Source: a virus. From it: a stretch of 64,000 nt of DNA. The stretch lies in IMG/VR virus record IMGVR_UViG_3300044712_000179, positions 1-64,000 of that record; one strand, given 5' to 3'. Made by a program: the position numbers and the translations under genes. Under the pieces are notes generated by a model. It was not told the origin of the DNA. It saw only the letters and a list, made by a program, of their open reading frames with translations, and did not search any database. Position 1 is the first letter of the stretch, and every line of letters begins with the position of its first letter. Shown in pieces: positions 8,428 through 22,331 of the stretch.

Positions 8428-8655
8428 ATGAGTAAGACTAAAATTTACAAGCTGTACGAAGCATTGTCTGTTATCAAAGAAATAGACAGATTCAAGGATT
8501 GTGATATGATAGGAACTATTTATAGAGAAACCGTACCCGAACATTACAAGTTAACGGAGTCAATGATTATCCATAACTATAATGTGGAGGTATACAATGC
8601 CGATGAGGTATATTTAATTTTAATAAGACACTTAGGTATCTTTCAATGTATGTAA
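8428..8655 (+). CDS. Hypothetical 75-aa protein
   Basis: Not recognised. Starts MSKTKIYKLYEALSVIKEI and has no visible domain. The DnaA-like gene follows 2 bases later, suggesting coupled translation. Confidence 0.55.
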   Translation: MSKTKIYKLYEALSVIKEIDRFKDCDMIGTIYRETVPEHYKLTESMIIHNYNVEVYNADEVYLILIRHLGIFQCM

Positions 8656-8657
8656 TT

Positions 8658-9080
8658 ATGAGTATAGCAGAATGTGATGTGATAAGCCCATATGTGTACG
8701 CTGGTATAAGAAGAAAGAATTTACCAAGCGACTTCAGGGATAGAATTAGAAGAAGAAGATGTAGGTATAAGATAGACTTTATATTTGAAGCTATCGAAAT
8801 GGTTACAGAACATACCAAAGAAGAAATGCGTGGAAGGTACAGGGGAAGAACATTGGTTCAAGCAAGGCAAATGTATTGCCACTTTGCGAGTACTTTACTT
8901 GGATGGTCTTTAACAGATATAGGCAAGGCTATCAATAGAGACCACACTACCGTGATCCACTCGAAGGATGCGTTTAATGACCTATACCAAACGGATGATA
9001 ATTTTAAAGATGATGCTGATAGAGTATTACAAGAAATAGAATGGATGACACAGGATATTATATTGAAAACGGAAGAGTAG
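8658..9080 (+). CDS. Stand-alone DnaA domain IV-like DNA-binding protein
   Basis: Residues about 60-110 match the C-terminal DNA-binding domain of DnaA: VQARQMYCHFASTLLGWSLT followed by DIGKAINRDHTTVIHSKD. The DHTTVIH stretch is the DnaA signature in the recognition helix-turn-helix. The AAA+ ATPase domain of DnaA is absent (140 aa in all). It may bind DnaA-box-like sites to direct phage replication or block host initiation. The ATG at 8658 is preferred because it follows the preceding stop closely; one at 8646 is also in frame. The DUF5522-like gene starts inside its end. Confidence 0.8.
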   Translation: MSIAECDVISPYVYAGIRRKNLPSDFRDRIRRRRCRYKIDFIFEAIEMVTEHTKEEMRGRYRGRTLVQARQMYCHFASTLLGWSLTDIGKAINRDHTTVIHSKDAFNDLYQTDDNFKDDADRVLQEIEWMTQDIILKTEE

Positions 9081-12195: not shown

Positions 12196-12226
12196 TTTGG
12201 AGGATATAATATTGTTTGTATCTTTG
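12196..12226 (+). promoter_or_regulatory. Consensus Bacteroidetes promoter
   Basis: TTTG (12196-12199), 19 bases, then TATCTTTG (12219-12226): an exact match to TTTG-N19-TAnnTTTG. The expected start is about 12233. No gene begins within 390 bases, so it probably drives the small RNA that ends at 12330. Confidence 0.75.
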
Positions 12227-12232
12227 TCTTAC

Positions 12233-12330
12233 AAATCCGATAAGGTAGGGGATGACTTTATCGGGTATGTTTCAAGAACTAACCCTTCTTAAGATATGCC
12301 CATTAGAATCCCCTCTAGTGGGCTTTTTTA
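12233..12330 (+). ncRNA. Predicted ~98-nt RNA with complementary (kissing) hairpin loops
   Basis: Between the promoter (12196-12226) and a terminator lie two hairpins. Hairpin 1 pairs 12237-12246 with 12255-12264 (10 pairs, one wobble) around an 8-base loop AGGGGATG. Hairpin 2 pairs 12298-12307 with 12314-12323 (10 pairs, one wobble) around the 6-base loop ATCCCC and runs into six T. The whole loop 2 is complementary to GGGGAT in loop 1, so the hairpins could kiss within one molecule or between two. No open frame fits. No RNA family is recognised. Confidence 0.6.
12298..12329 (+). terminator. Rho-independent terminator of the 12.2-kb RNA
   Basis: A perfect 10-bp stem (one G-U pair), six-base loop and six T residues (12324-12329). 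Confidence 0.75.
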
Positions 12331-12630
12331 TTATCGGTAATGAAGAGAATTGGCGTTCCCCTCTCACAGTTCCGATACAAGGAAAGCAGTAGTAGTGCCT
12401 GCAAAGATTACACTTACTACGAAAACTCTTTTAAATGTATAGTATTCTTCTAGACTTGCGTAACTATACAGCCTCACTTCACTGAACTCATTGACTCATC
12501 GGTATGAATGGTAAGAATGTAAGTCATATCTCCTTTAGGGGGTAGGGGGTATGACTTCGTTTTACTTACCTTCTTTCAGAATCTATAAATCTATCGGTAT
12601 AAATTTATATAAACACCAAACAAAATATAT
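12331..12630 (+). other. Structured non-coding segment with three hairpins
   Basis: No gene is visible. Three hairpins occur: 12389-12397/12411-12420 (nine pairs, one bulge), TGTATAGT/ACTATACA (12436-12443/12463-12470), and a long one with GGTAAG/CTTACC (12510-12515/12565-12570) enclosing AAGTCATA/TATGACTT (12521-12528/12550-12557). In the last, CTCC (12530-12533) can pair with either of two GGGGG runs (538-542 or 545-549 of 12 kb), giving two alternative folds. TATCGGTA-like strings recur at 12332, 12499 and 12592. It may be one or more RNAs or the leader of the 12631 unit. Confidence 0.5.
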
Positions 12631-13386: not shown

Positions 13387-13893
13387 ATGAAAACAGCAGA
13401 TTTTATTGGAACTATGGGATTTTTTAGTTGTGCCTTCAGAATGTTTTATGGATATAGGGTATATCCTACTGGGAGAATATTAAGTGCAAAAAGTAAAAGA
13501 TTCTTAAAAGAAAGCACAAATGGAGTATATAAAAAATATAATTTATGTATTAATGGTAAAAAATTTAATGTAAATACACATAGATTATTAGCTGAATTAT
13601 ATATACCTAATCCAGAAAATAAAGAACAAGTAAATCATATTGATGGTAATAAACATAATAATTTATTAGAAAACTTAGAATGGGTCACTCGTTCCGAAAA
13701 TAGTAAACACAGTTTTAAAAATGGGTTGCAAAAAGTAACAAAACCAAATAAAAAAGTAATTGATTTAGATGGGACTATTTATGAATCTGCAAAAGAAGCT
13801 GCAATTAAACTTGGTTACAATCATAAGACTTTGTGTAATATGCTTAATCCTAAATTTAATCACACAAATAAAACAAATTTACGTTATGTCTAA
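13387..13893 (+). CDS. HNH homing endonuclease (NUMOD/HNH type)
   Basis: The 168-aa product has the HNH core VNHIDGNKHNNLLENLEWV (residues about 79-97) followed by TRSENSKHS, typical of free-standing phage HNH homing endonucleases. The C-terminal part KVIDLDGTIYESAKEAAIKL and LCNML resembles a NUMOD-type DNA-binding helix. It is more AT-rich than its neighbours and overlaps the next gene by 8 bases. Probably a mobile gene that spreads itself into related phages. Confidence 0.85.
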   Translation: MKTADFIGTMGFFSCAFRMFYGYRVYPTGRILSAKSKRFLKESTNGVYKKYNLCINGKKFNVNTHRLLAELYIPNPENKEQVNHIDGNKHNNLLENLEWVTRSENSKHSFKNGLQKVTKPNKKVIDLDGTIYESAKEAAIKLGYNHKTLCNMLNPKFNHTNKTNLRYV

Positions 13894-19433: not shown

Positions 19434-22331
19434 ATGCAAAAGGTCACCATATTTGAAAACATCAAGAACATTAGCGAACCTAAATTCGTTAATATAGAAG
19501 CTGTATTAGCCGCTATACAGAACGGACGATACAAGGATAAAGTAGAGGCTATTAGAGCCTGTAAAGAAGAATATAAGATACCTTCTTTGAAAGCAAATCT
19601 ACCTTGCGTATTATTTGCGGGGGAGTTTGGAAAACCAATTACGAAAACATATTCCAATGGAGATGAGTATATCTCTTACAGAGATGATAAGAGTTTAACC
19701 TCTCACAGCGGATTTGTACCTATAGATATAGATGATATAGATAATTTAGACGAGAAGAGAGAAGAATTAATTAACAATCCTTATGTATATGCATTATGGG
19801 TTTCTTCTAGTGGTAAAGGATTACACGGACTAGTGAAGATTGGAGATGGAAATAAACATACTCAACACTACAAGGCATTACTTAGCAAGATAGATGGTCT
19901 AGACCCAACAGCTAGAAATGTATCTAGAGTGCTGTACTTGTCTTATGACCCTGATATATACATCAATACCTCTTGCTCTGTATTTTTCGATATAGAACAA
20001 GAAGAAGAACAGCAAGTAAGTAGAATTCACTTAGGAGATGGCTATACAGACTATAAGAAGATAGATGTGGCTTCTAGGATGATTCGACTAGCTCCTGATG
20101 GACAGAAACATCATATCTTATTGAAGGCTGCTCACCTATTGGGTGGATATGTAGCTACCAAGCATATTGAATACGAGGTAGCTAAGAATATTTTAACGCA
20201 CGAGATAAGCAAGAAGCAAGTAGAAGATTTAGGATTGGCTATCAAGACGATTGAGGATGGATTAAGACACGGTATGACGATGCCTATCGCGGAGATAGAG
20301 ACTTCTTATAGAGAAGCTGTTAGAGAAATAGGCGTTATGGAGGAGGATTTATCCTTCCTTACATCCAATACAAAAGACGATGATTTTATCTACAGATTTA
20401 GGTCTGGATTGATACCAATGGGACTACCTTTTGGATACCACCATTTAGACGAGCATTTAAGGCTCAAGGAGGGCGAATTTTACGCTGCCTTGGCTCACAC
20501 TGGAGTTGGCAAAGCGCAGCCTTTATCTAGTTCTATATTGACGCCTAAAGGATGGATGAAGTTCAGGGATGTCAAGGTAGGTGATATCATATGTGACACA
20601 AGAGGTAACACTCAATCCGTGTTAGGCGTATTCCCTCAAGGAGAGAGAGATGTGTATAAGGTTACTATGTCAGATAATTCTCACGTATTTTGCGATGGAG
20701 ACCACCTATGGAGTGTTAATGGCCATTATAGAAGACATAGGGGGGTTAGAGATAAAGATGGAGTTAATAGATACACTCCAGATATGTCTTTTAAGACTAT
20801 GAAGACTACCGATATGATACCTACTGTAAAATTAACTGGTAAGTCTCAGGGTAATAGGAATAATTATTTATTGCCAGAGGTCTTGCCTGTTAAATTTGAT
20901 TCTAAAGATGTTGCAATAGATCCGTATTTTTTAGGCGTGTTATTGGGAGATGGATGCATACCTTCTTTTAGTATATCTAATAATGATAAAGAATTAATGG
21001 ATACTATTAAGGATGGAGAGTTTATTAGTAGTATTAGTTTTTATAATAAAATTGTGGATGGGAAGAATAGGAGTATATATACTGCGTATATTAAGCGTAC
21101 TATTAAGAAGCATCTGGAGCTTTATGGATTATTAGGAGCTAAGTCTAGTAATAAATTTATACCCAATGACTATATATTTAATGATTACGAAACTAGATTA
21201 GCTCTACTTCAAGGATTAATGGATACGGATGGCACTGTTGGTAAAGAGGGGCAGATTTCATACTCTACTATATCAGAAAGTCTTAAAGATGGAGTCATAA
21301 GCATCGTGAATTCTCTTGGTGGAAGAGCTACATACAAGTCTAAGATTAAAAAATATAGACACAAAGGGGAGCTTAGGTCTGGTGCTTTGTGCTACGAAGT
21401 TCAAATACAATTACCTTCTAGCATAATGCCATTCAGATTGAGTAGAAAGATACAGAGAGTCCCTGTCAAAAGAAGAGATATTAGAAAGTATATTTCAAGT
21501 ATAGAATTCTCTCATAGGGAAGAATGCGCTTGCATTATGGTTAGCAATGAAAACAGCTTATATGTTACAGATAATTATATACCAACGCATAATAGTAGCC
21601 TGAATTTGTGGCTTATATTCCTTTCTGCGATACATTACGATTGGAACTGGATGTTGTATATGGGAGAGAACTCATCAGCAGCCGTAAAGATGAAGATGAT
21701 GGAGTTCTTTATAGGCAAAAAAGTCACTCAAATGACAGACTTAGAGCACAATGTAGCACTAAAGTTCATAGACGAACACTTCTTCATCCTTTCTACGGAA
21801 AATATGTACACTTATAGTGAGATATTGGAACACTCTAAGATGTTGATGCAGTATAAGTCATTGAAGGGTATCTTTATAGACCCCTACAACAGCCTTAAAA
21901 TGGAGTTAACAGCCGCTAAGAACAAATACATATATGACTATGAGGCTTATAGTGAGATGTTAAACTATACTAGAAAATACAATACCACTATATTCTTATC
22001 TGTACATACTACTACAGAAGCTCAAAGAGACAGAGACAAGGATGGCAACCAAAGAATGCCACACGCGTCTCAAGCAGAGGGAGGTTCTGTTTTATCCAAT
22101 AAGGTGGACAATTTTATGGTGTATCACAGAAAGATGAAGTCTCCAGACGAGTGGATGTATACGCAGGTTTCTATTGATAAGGTAAGGTCTAGAGAAACAG
22201 GAGGAAAACCGACTGTGAACGGAGACCCTTGTGTATTAAGATTGAATAATGGAGTTGAGTTTGTGGACATACACAATCAACTTCCGTTCGATAGAGAAAA
22301 ATTATTGTATAAACATAAATGTCTTTTTTAA
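19434..22331 (+). CDS. Primase-helicase (VirE/BT4734-like N-terminus, DnaB/RecA-like ATPase) with intein
   Basis: The 965-aa precursor starts with a VirE/BT4734-like primase-type domain (residues about 55-190: VPIDIDDIDN, ALWVSSSGKGLHGLVKI, RVLYLSYDPDIYIN). A RecA-like helicase domain follows, whose P-loop GVGK (357-360) is interrupted by a 360-aa intein (361-720). Splicing restores GVGKSS. Downstream, GIFIDPYNS (about 812-820) is the Walker B strand and FLSVHTTTEAQR a later helicase motif. The spliced host protein would be about 605 aa. It probably primes and unwinds DNA at the phage fork. A terminator precedes it and a small gene overlaps its end. Confidence 0.85.
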   Translation: MQKVTIFENIKNISEPKFVNIEAVLAAIQNGRYKDKVEAIRACKEEYKIPSLKANLPCVLFAGEFGKPITKTYSNGDEYISYRDDKSLTSHSGFVPIDIDDIDNLDEKREELINNPYVYALWVSSSGKGLHGLVKIGDGNKHTQHYKALLSKIDGLDPTARNVSRVLYLSYDPDIYINTSCSVFFDIEQEEEQQVSRIHLGDGYTDYKKIDVASRMIRLAPDGQKHHILLKAAHLLGGYVATKHIEYEVAKNILTHEISKKQVEDLGLAIKTIEDGLRHGMTMPIAEIETSYREAVREIGVMEEDLSFLTSNTKDDDFIYRFRSGLIPMGLPFGYHHLDEHLRLKEGEFYAALAHTGVGKAQPLSSSILTPKGWMKFRDVKVGDIICDTRGNTQSVLGVFPQGERDVYKVTMSDNSHVFCDGDHLWSVNGHYRRHRGVRDKDGVNRYTPDMSFKTMKTTDMIPTVKLTGKSQGNRNNYLLPEVLPVKFDSKDVAIDPYFLGVLLGDGCIPSFSISNNDKELMDTIKDGEFISSISFYNKIVDGKNRSIYTAYIKRTIKKHLELYGLLGAKSSNKFIPNDYIFNDYETRLALLQGLMDTDGTVGKEGQISYSTISESLKDGVISIVNSLGGRATYKSKIKKYRHKGELRSGALCYEVQIQLPSSIMPFRLSRKIQRVPVKRRDIRKYISSIEFSHREECACIMVSNENSLYVTDNYIPTHNSSLNLWLIFLSAIHYDWNWMLYMGENSSAAVKMKMMEFFIGKKVTQMTDLEHNVALKFIDEHFFILSTENMYTYSEILEHSKMLMQYKSLKGIFIDPYNSLKMELTAAKNKYIYDYEAYSEMLNYTRKYNTTIFLSVHTTTEAQRDRDKDGNQRMPHASQAEGGSVLSNKVDNFMVYHRKMKSPDEWMYTQVSIDKVRSRETGGKPTVNGDPCVLRLNNGVEFVDIHNQLPFDREKLLYKHKCLF
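20514..21593 (+). other. Intein with LAGLIDADG endonuclease, class 3 features
   Basis: Residues 361-720 of the precursor. It begins Ala-Gln-Pro rather than Cys and ends Thr-His-Asn, with Ser next. The class 3 triplet is visible: Trp66 in GDHLW (block B), Cys340 in CIMV (block F), and Thr358 in THN (block G). LAGLIDADG blocks are FLGVLLGDG and LLQGLMDTDG. It sits exactly in the P-loop, a favoured intein site in helicases. The DNA is more AT-rich and GTA/ATA-rich than flanking exteins, suggesting transfer. Confidence 0.85.

Follow-up and report, generated by a model that had tools for sequence, protein, structure and literature searches.

The question raised by this locus is what a predicted RNA of about 99 nt, with complementary hairpin loops and a promoter of its own, does in a phage genome. 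The locus lies in a stretch of phage DNA (hereafter the window) comprising 64 kb out of a 65,023-base IMG/VR phage record. The terminase of the window is a distant relative, at 28-32% identity, of the terminases of Cellulophaga and Maribacter podophages, and the records matching it also include Flavobacterium phages. On account of these relatives, the host most probably belongs to the Flavobacteriia. The promoter had been read from the sequence alone as TTTG-N19-TATCTTTG with no gene behind it. This motif was found, and a conserved ORF is absent from the element. In F. psychrophilum, the mapped sigma-A -7 box TAnnTTTG occupies positions -12 to -5 (PMC9723704). The predicted +1 in the window is therefore A12231. 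The same promoter is present at an equal distance, with a purine at +1, in all 22 distinct homologs.

The homologs were collected by pattern scans of IMG/VR, which yielded 29 loci with 22 distinct sequences of the leader RNA (hereafter RNA1). These sequences share ancestry, and the counts given here are those of non-independent events. A covariance model (R1) identified exactly one true RNA1 copy in each phage record (27/27); the weaker second matches were the complementary strand at the same place. Variation among the homologs is greatest in the two loops and close to nil in the stem sequence of the first hairpin (P1), the motif CCCAUYA...URGUGGG and the T-run. No homolog lacking both hairpins was found. 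The comparison thus supports a conserved RNA that has a promoter of its own and complementary loops that co-vary.

RNA1 corresponds to no family in Rfam, as the sequence-only reading had supposed. With Rfam 15, the window gave only a tRNA at the gathering threshold, and 14 homologous loci gave nothing at that threshold. The phi29 pRNA (RF00044) was not matched at gathering, nor were the ROOL and GOLLD family models. Relaxed E-values brought up no family either: the best sub-threshold match of RNA1, to trpB (RF04312; 24.4 vs 59 bits), was not repeated in L003 and was attributed to chance. BLAST of the window region and three further RNA1-bearing cassettes against isolate phages gave zero matches, and the exact P1 pattern, run without a positive control, gave 0 matches in 395 Bacteroidota genomes. 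R1, applied to three isolates with related terminases, gave only one match (18 bits, E = 0.14), in Cellulophaga phi46:3, which was rejected as dissimilar in sequence. A contig scan with a fragment of the middle hairpin gave 30 matches, all unrelated.

The predicted fold of RNA1 has an energy of -35.2 kcal/mol (z = -4.8), and 0/200 shuffles were as stable. Two hairpins and a terminator had been described at the outset. The hairpins are present; the second of them, however, is the terminator hairpin (P3) itself and not a separate element before it, and a third, middle hairpin (P2) had been overlooked (Table 1). P3 is followed by T5-T7, and the promoter lies upstream, in 22/22 distinct sequences. 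An intrinsic terminator is thus located between the promoter and the unit to be regulated in every case. The P2 middle domain occurs in at least eight (about 11) types, many of which are mutually unrelated.

Table 1. Positions of the promoter, RNA1, the competing helices and RNA2 (window coordinates unless a locus is named)
Feature	Position	Strand	Remarks
Promoter, sigma-A type of Bacteroidota (predicted)	12196-12226	+	TTTG 12196-12199, 19-nt spacer, TATCTTTG 12219-12226
RNA1, predicted leader/small RNA of ~99 nt	12231-12329	+	ends with intrinsic terminator; covariance model R1
P1 hairpin (regions 1:2)	12235-12266	+	12 bp, 8-nt loop; stem nearly invariant
Antiterminator helix, 5' strand (AGGGGAT)	12247-12253	+	partner 12308-12314 (ATCCCCT)
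Extended P2 helix, 5' strand (GGGTATGTTT)	12263-12272	+	partner 12292-12301; GGG taken from P1
P2 middle hairpin	12267-12297	+	content varies; closing pairs in register with GGG/CCC
Extended P2 helix, 3' strand (AGATATGCCC)	12292-12301	+	CCC taken from terminator stem
P3 terminator hairpin and T-run	12298-12329	+	hairpin 12298-12323 (10 bp, loop ATCCCC); T-run 12324-12329 (T6)
Antiterminator helix, 3' strand (terminator loop)	12308-12314	+	partner 12247-12253
RNA2, type beta, structured non-coding	12330-12615	+	3' end approximate; no promoter of its own
RNA2-beta hairpin with compensatory pairs	12437-12475	+	
RNA2-alpha	L003:467-812	+	core near-invariant: GUGGUAGC..AUGUCUUAC.GGUUGACAACUGCCGACAAG

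GGGGAT in the hypervariable P1 loop (12247-12254) had been noted as complementary to ATCCCC in the P3 loop (12308-12313). This holds, with 7 contiguous pairs in the window and compensatory changes in the relatives. The P1 loop (L1) and the P3 loop (L3) share 7-9 contiguous strict Watson-Crick pairs in 21/22 distinct sequences. The longest match averaged 8.45, as compared with 4.39 +/- 0.33 for shuffled partners, and 0/2000 shuffles reached 8.45. Each of the loop positions 2-8 showed 2-4 pair types, including G-C/A-U/C-G, and compensatory changes were found at every one. L1 and L3 match within each phage and not between phages. Since the complementarity persists although the loops differ between phages, the L1:L3 pairing is conserved. 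A third loop partner was sought: none was found in the middle domain and upstream, and in RNA2 the signal was marginal (a same-sense L1 core, reached by 28/500 shuffles).

The sole exception among the 22 is L018 (3769-3869), a natural variant in which the L1:L3 match is lost. Non-compensating loop changes, which had been named as evidence against the element, were therefore met with in this sequence alone, and the other 21 compensate. L018 shares its P1 loop with L002, and its P3 loop is similar to the one in L016, so that the combination looks as if it had been recombined. L018 is predicted to be a ready-made natural mutant, incapable of antitermination.

It had been suggested that the two loops form a kissing complex or dimer. 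While the pairing itself proved to be conserved, a nested antiterminator is a simpler reading of it. The L1:L3 helix is the outer of two nested helices. The inner one is an extended P2 helix (P2ext): beyond P2 itself, it joins GGGN, with which P1 ends, to NCCC, with which P3 starts. The two helices therefore make up an ordinary antiterminator, free of pseudoknots, in competition with both P1 and the terminator. When run on the nascent alignment, RNAalifold returned exactly the antiterminator helix (9 bp of L1:L3) and P2ext (7 bp). The position after the GGG is paired in 22/22 (U-G in 12, U-A in 7 and C-G in 3). The closing pairs of P2 form a mean run of 4.18 at offset 0,0, and of about 1.9 at most with one side shifted; the shuffled-partner p value for the register with GGG/CCC was 0.0002, with one sequence per type. 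The U6-G37 pair of P1 is a wobble in 22/22 and in none of them a U-A or C-G pair, which would be expected of a G37 that has to pair with C too. The P2ext argument leans partly on the invariant GGG/CCC, which is free of covariation, and partly on about 11 middle-domain types, some of them interdependent.

Prefix-by-prefix folding, which like all folding in this study was equilibrium thermodynamics, gave P1 first, then the antiterminator, and then P1+P2+P3 once the 3' arm of the terminator exists. The antiterminator was the nascent optimum in 21/22 sequences, over a stretch of 6-15 nt that immediately precedes the point at which P3 becomes possible. In these 21 sequences it was favoured over the P1-forced nascent fold by 2.5-9 kcal/mol; the full-length RNA favoured P1+P2+P3. 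L018, the only sequence with a broken L1:L3, was also the only one that never entered the alternative state. Sequence, covariation and energy thus agree on a conserved antiterminator that excludes the terminator, with L018 as the exception. In the nascent RNA the antiterminator may be kinetically out of reach, as P1 forms early and is stable.

The core of a second structured RNA (RNA2), of type alpha or beta, was found directly behind the T-run of RNA1 in 28/29 loci. The 29th locus, L029, retains only the 5' part of beta and a G-rich hairpin. In RNA2-alpha (~330 nt), which is present in L003 and also in L019, L021, L024, L026, L028, L061, L062, L064, L077 and L107, compensatory changes were observed in 25/54 consensus pairs. 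In the beta type of the window (~280 nt), they were observed in 5/21 pairs of a shallower set. Neither alpha nor beta was recognised by an Rfam model. The folding energy of the whole RNA2 was not below that of shuffles (z about -0.8), and it is therefore covariation alone that supports its structure. The middle types of RNA1 and the types of RNA2 are freely combined (A, B and C each with alpha and beta). On the + strand of RNA2 no promoter-like sites were found, the few further sites lying at +395 or beyond, near the next gene. Since the interior of RNA2 carries no promoter-like site, we infer that it depends on read-through from RNA1. The cassette of promoter, RNA1 and RNA2 lies in the ERF annealing protein region in the window, L002, L016, L021 and L029, beside major head protein/head-tail adaptor genes in L028 and beside other genes in L061 and L070. 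As the flanking genes differ, the cassette is portable and does not serve as leader to any single gene.

Some further features of RNA2-beta were observed. A G-rich hairpin in the window (about 12508-12569) has the loop GGGGGTAGGGGG; that downstream of RNA1 in L029 has the loop GGGGGAGGGTAGGGAGGGGG, a G-quadruplex-like run. Direct repeats lie on either side of the hairpin in the window (12497-12505 and 12592-12600) and at the same places in L001, L002, L016, L070, L022, L085 and L088. The repeats are alike within a phage and co-vary between phages (ATCGGTAT, ATTAGTAT, AGTGGTAA, TTGGTTAG, TTGGGTAG).

L107 was found by a scan with the alpha core, and its leader was unrecognised by R1. This leader has a promoter and a hairpin with the loop AGUAGAGA; a middle hairpin directly adjoins the terminator, the loop of which contains ...UCUCUAC.... 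The hairpin loop (GUAGAGA) and the terminator loop (UCUCUAC) give the same nested antiterminator fold. The antiterminator of L107 remains the optimum even at full length, and its set point should therefore differ from that of the other RNA1 loci. The design of RNA1 thus persists in L107 where the sequence does not.

The sequences and their covariation point to an attenuator layout, consisting of the promoter, P1, P2, P3 with its T-run, the L1:L3 and P2ext helices, and RNA2 behind them. RNA1 is probably, in a judgement that we hold with moderate confidence, a transcription attenuator at the 5' end of a portable promoter-RNA1-RNA2 cassette of Bacteroidota phages. The most economical interpretation would be a new phage attenuator family ahead of a second new structured RNA. 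From the energy model and the logic of the design, P1 would fold first as RNA polymerase transcribes the leader. The emerging terminator loop could then base-pair with the P1 loop, which is exposed, in a contact that might start as a kiss, and P2 would meanwhile zip into GGG/CCC from the opposite side. By capturing the terminator's 5' half, the antiterminator would let transcription continue into RNA2. If P1 were held, or if the 3' arm of P3 were complete, P3 would form and transcription would stop, leaving an RNA of ~99 nt. Read-through could either be regulated or occur at a constant ratio determined by kinetics. That a putative factor reads P1 is suggested by the near-invariance of its stem and 5' strand. 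If RNA2 were not a functional product, the target of the attenuator would not be evident.

In the main rival reading, which is unlikely, finished RNA1 would instead form a true kissing complex, intramolecular or as a homodimer or oligomer, and serve as a compact or multimeric structural RNA with constitutive termination. Both loops are 7 nt and fully complementary in many predicted folds, with cognate loops at -11.6 vs -4.5 kcal/mol for non-cognate ones. The loop-loop pairing that a kissing-loop dimer calls for is kept by covariation, which is accounted for as well by this explanation as by the attenuator and is equally compatible with the nested antiterminator. The ROOL and GOLLD phage RNAs are assembled via conserved intermolecular kissing loops (PMC12286853). 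The complementarity of RNA1, however, often reaches 9 bp, exceeding the 7-nt loops, and a coaxial P1-kiss-P3 stack would span about 75-85 A in a coarse helix model. In most types P2 adjoins both stems directly, with no linker, so that an intramolecular kiss would need P2 to be opened. The case for an intermolecular complex is weakened by the nested alternative fold. In addition, the P2ext register, the invariant U-G wobble, the T-run and the adjacent RNA2 would be left unexplained.

The promoter and terminator of RNA1 would also suit a trans-acting small RNA (a sponge, an antisense RNA or an anti-defence RNA), with read-through and RNA2 being incidental. The element is insulated, portable, present in single copy per phage in varied gene contexts, and near-invariant in its P1 stem. 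We nevertheless regard this as quite unlikely, since the obligate linkage to RNA2 and the nested alternative fold are not explained by it. A fixed host target would be hard to reconcile with hypervariable loops, and the search for a third loop complement likewise spoke against it.

It is improbable, and perhaps slightly more so, that the attenuator is itself under control in trans, the terminated ~99-nt RNA1 pairing through its P1 and P3 loops with the loops of nascent RNA1 and so blocking the antiterminator and read-through. Such feedback would be phage-specific, because the loops differ between phages yet match within each. If true, it would amount to self-recognition by RNA only (homoimmunity or incompatibility), governing a second RNA.

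Very improbable is the view that RNA1 and RNA2 together form a single large structured RNA (~400 nt) without switching, P3 serving as an internal helix and the U-run as a linker. RNA1 and RNA2 are directly adjacent with no promoter between them, RNA2 is present in essentially all loci, and its alpha type shows extensive compensatory changes as given above; P3 with T5-T7 in 22/22 is, however, a textbook intrinsic terminator, and the free mixing of middle and RNA2 types indicates that the two RNAs behave as separable modules. A tRNA anticodon-loop decoy, prompted by the 7-nt loops, was rejected as the constant U33-like position is missing, and a ColE1-like origin, prompted by three hairpins and a G-rich RNA2, as the cassette lies away from the GC-skew switch and, in other phages, within structural modules.

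The attenuator reading may be compared with known systems. Attenuators of the trp type and terminator riboswitches have a 1:2 / 2:3 / 3:4 arrangement, to which P1, the antiterminator and the terminator of RNA1 correspond. RNA1 differs in that it has no leader peptide, that P1 begins at about +5, and that the antiterminator strands are hypervariable loops. In the pT181-type plasmid attenuator, loop-loop contact has been proposed as the first step; as in RNA1, a 5' hairpin carries the antiterminator sequence and the ON fold takes the 5' part of the terminator (PMC4878617). The likeness is one of design, the product of pT181 being Rep mRNA and that downstream of RNA1 a structured RNA. In contrast to pT181, the minus strand has no antisense promoter-like site in 27/29 loci, among them the window; the other two, L016 and L017, are identical to each other and have one poor match (CTTG). 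Any trans RNA from the window leader would therefore be RNA1 itself. In P4 phage immunity (CI RNA, seqA/seqC) and Gifsy-1 IsrK, pairing in a phage leader RNA controls termination or expression, as is proposed for RNA1, and a short terminated or processed form coexists with a read-through form (PMC4825925). Those RNAs act in trans on prophage genes, whereas the exact P1 pattern of RNA1 had no matches in the sampled Bacteroidota genomes. ROOL and GOLLD resemble RNA1 in being structured RNAs that phages encode and in having kissing contacts that are conserved (PMC12286853), but they are much larger, differ in structure and usually lie near tRNA islands. The structured RNAs of phages of Bacteroidota have been charted only sparsely, and RNA1 adds a covariation-supported family with a testable switch design, whose diverse natural loop pairs might provide a set of orthogonal attenuator parts.

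Several other genes of the window were noted. An HNH_3 endonuclease gene (13387-13893) lies about 1 kb downstream of the cassette. Small HNH-like ORFs were seen by eye after the cassette in L022 and L085, that of L022 being without a Pfam match. A phage protein with a DnaA C-terminal domain (origin-binding helix-turn-helix) is encoded at 8646-9080. At 19434-22331, a predicted primase/helicase-type protein has a BT4734-like N-terminal domain and an intein-like insertion of a LAGLIDADG homing endonuclease.
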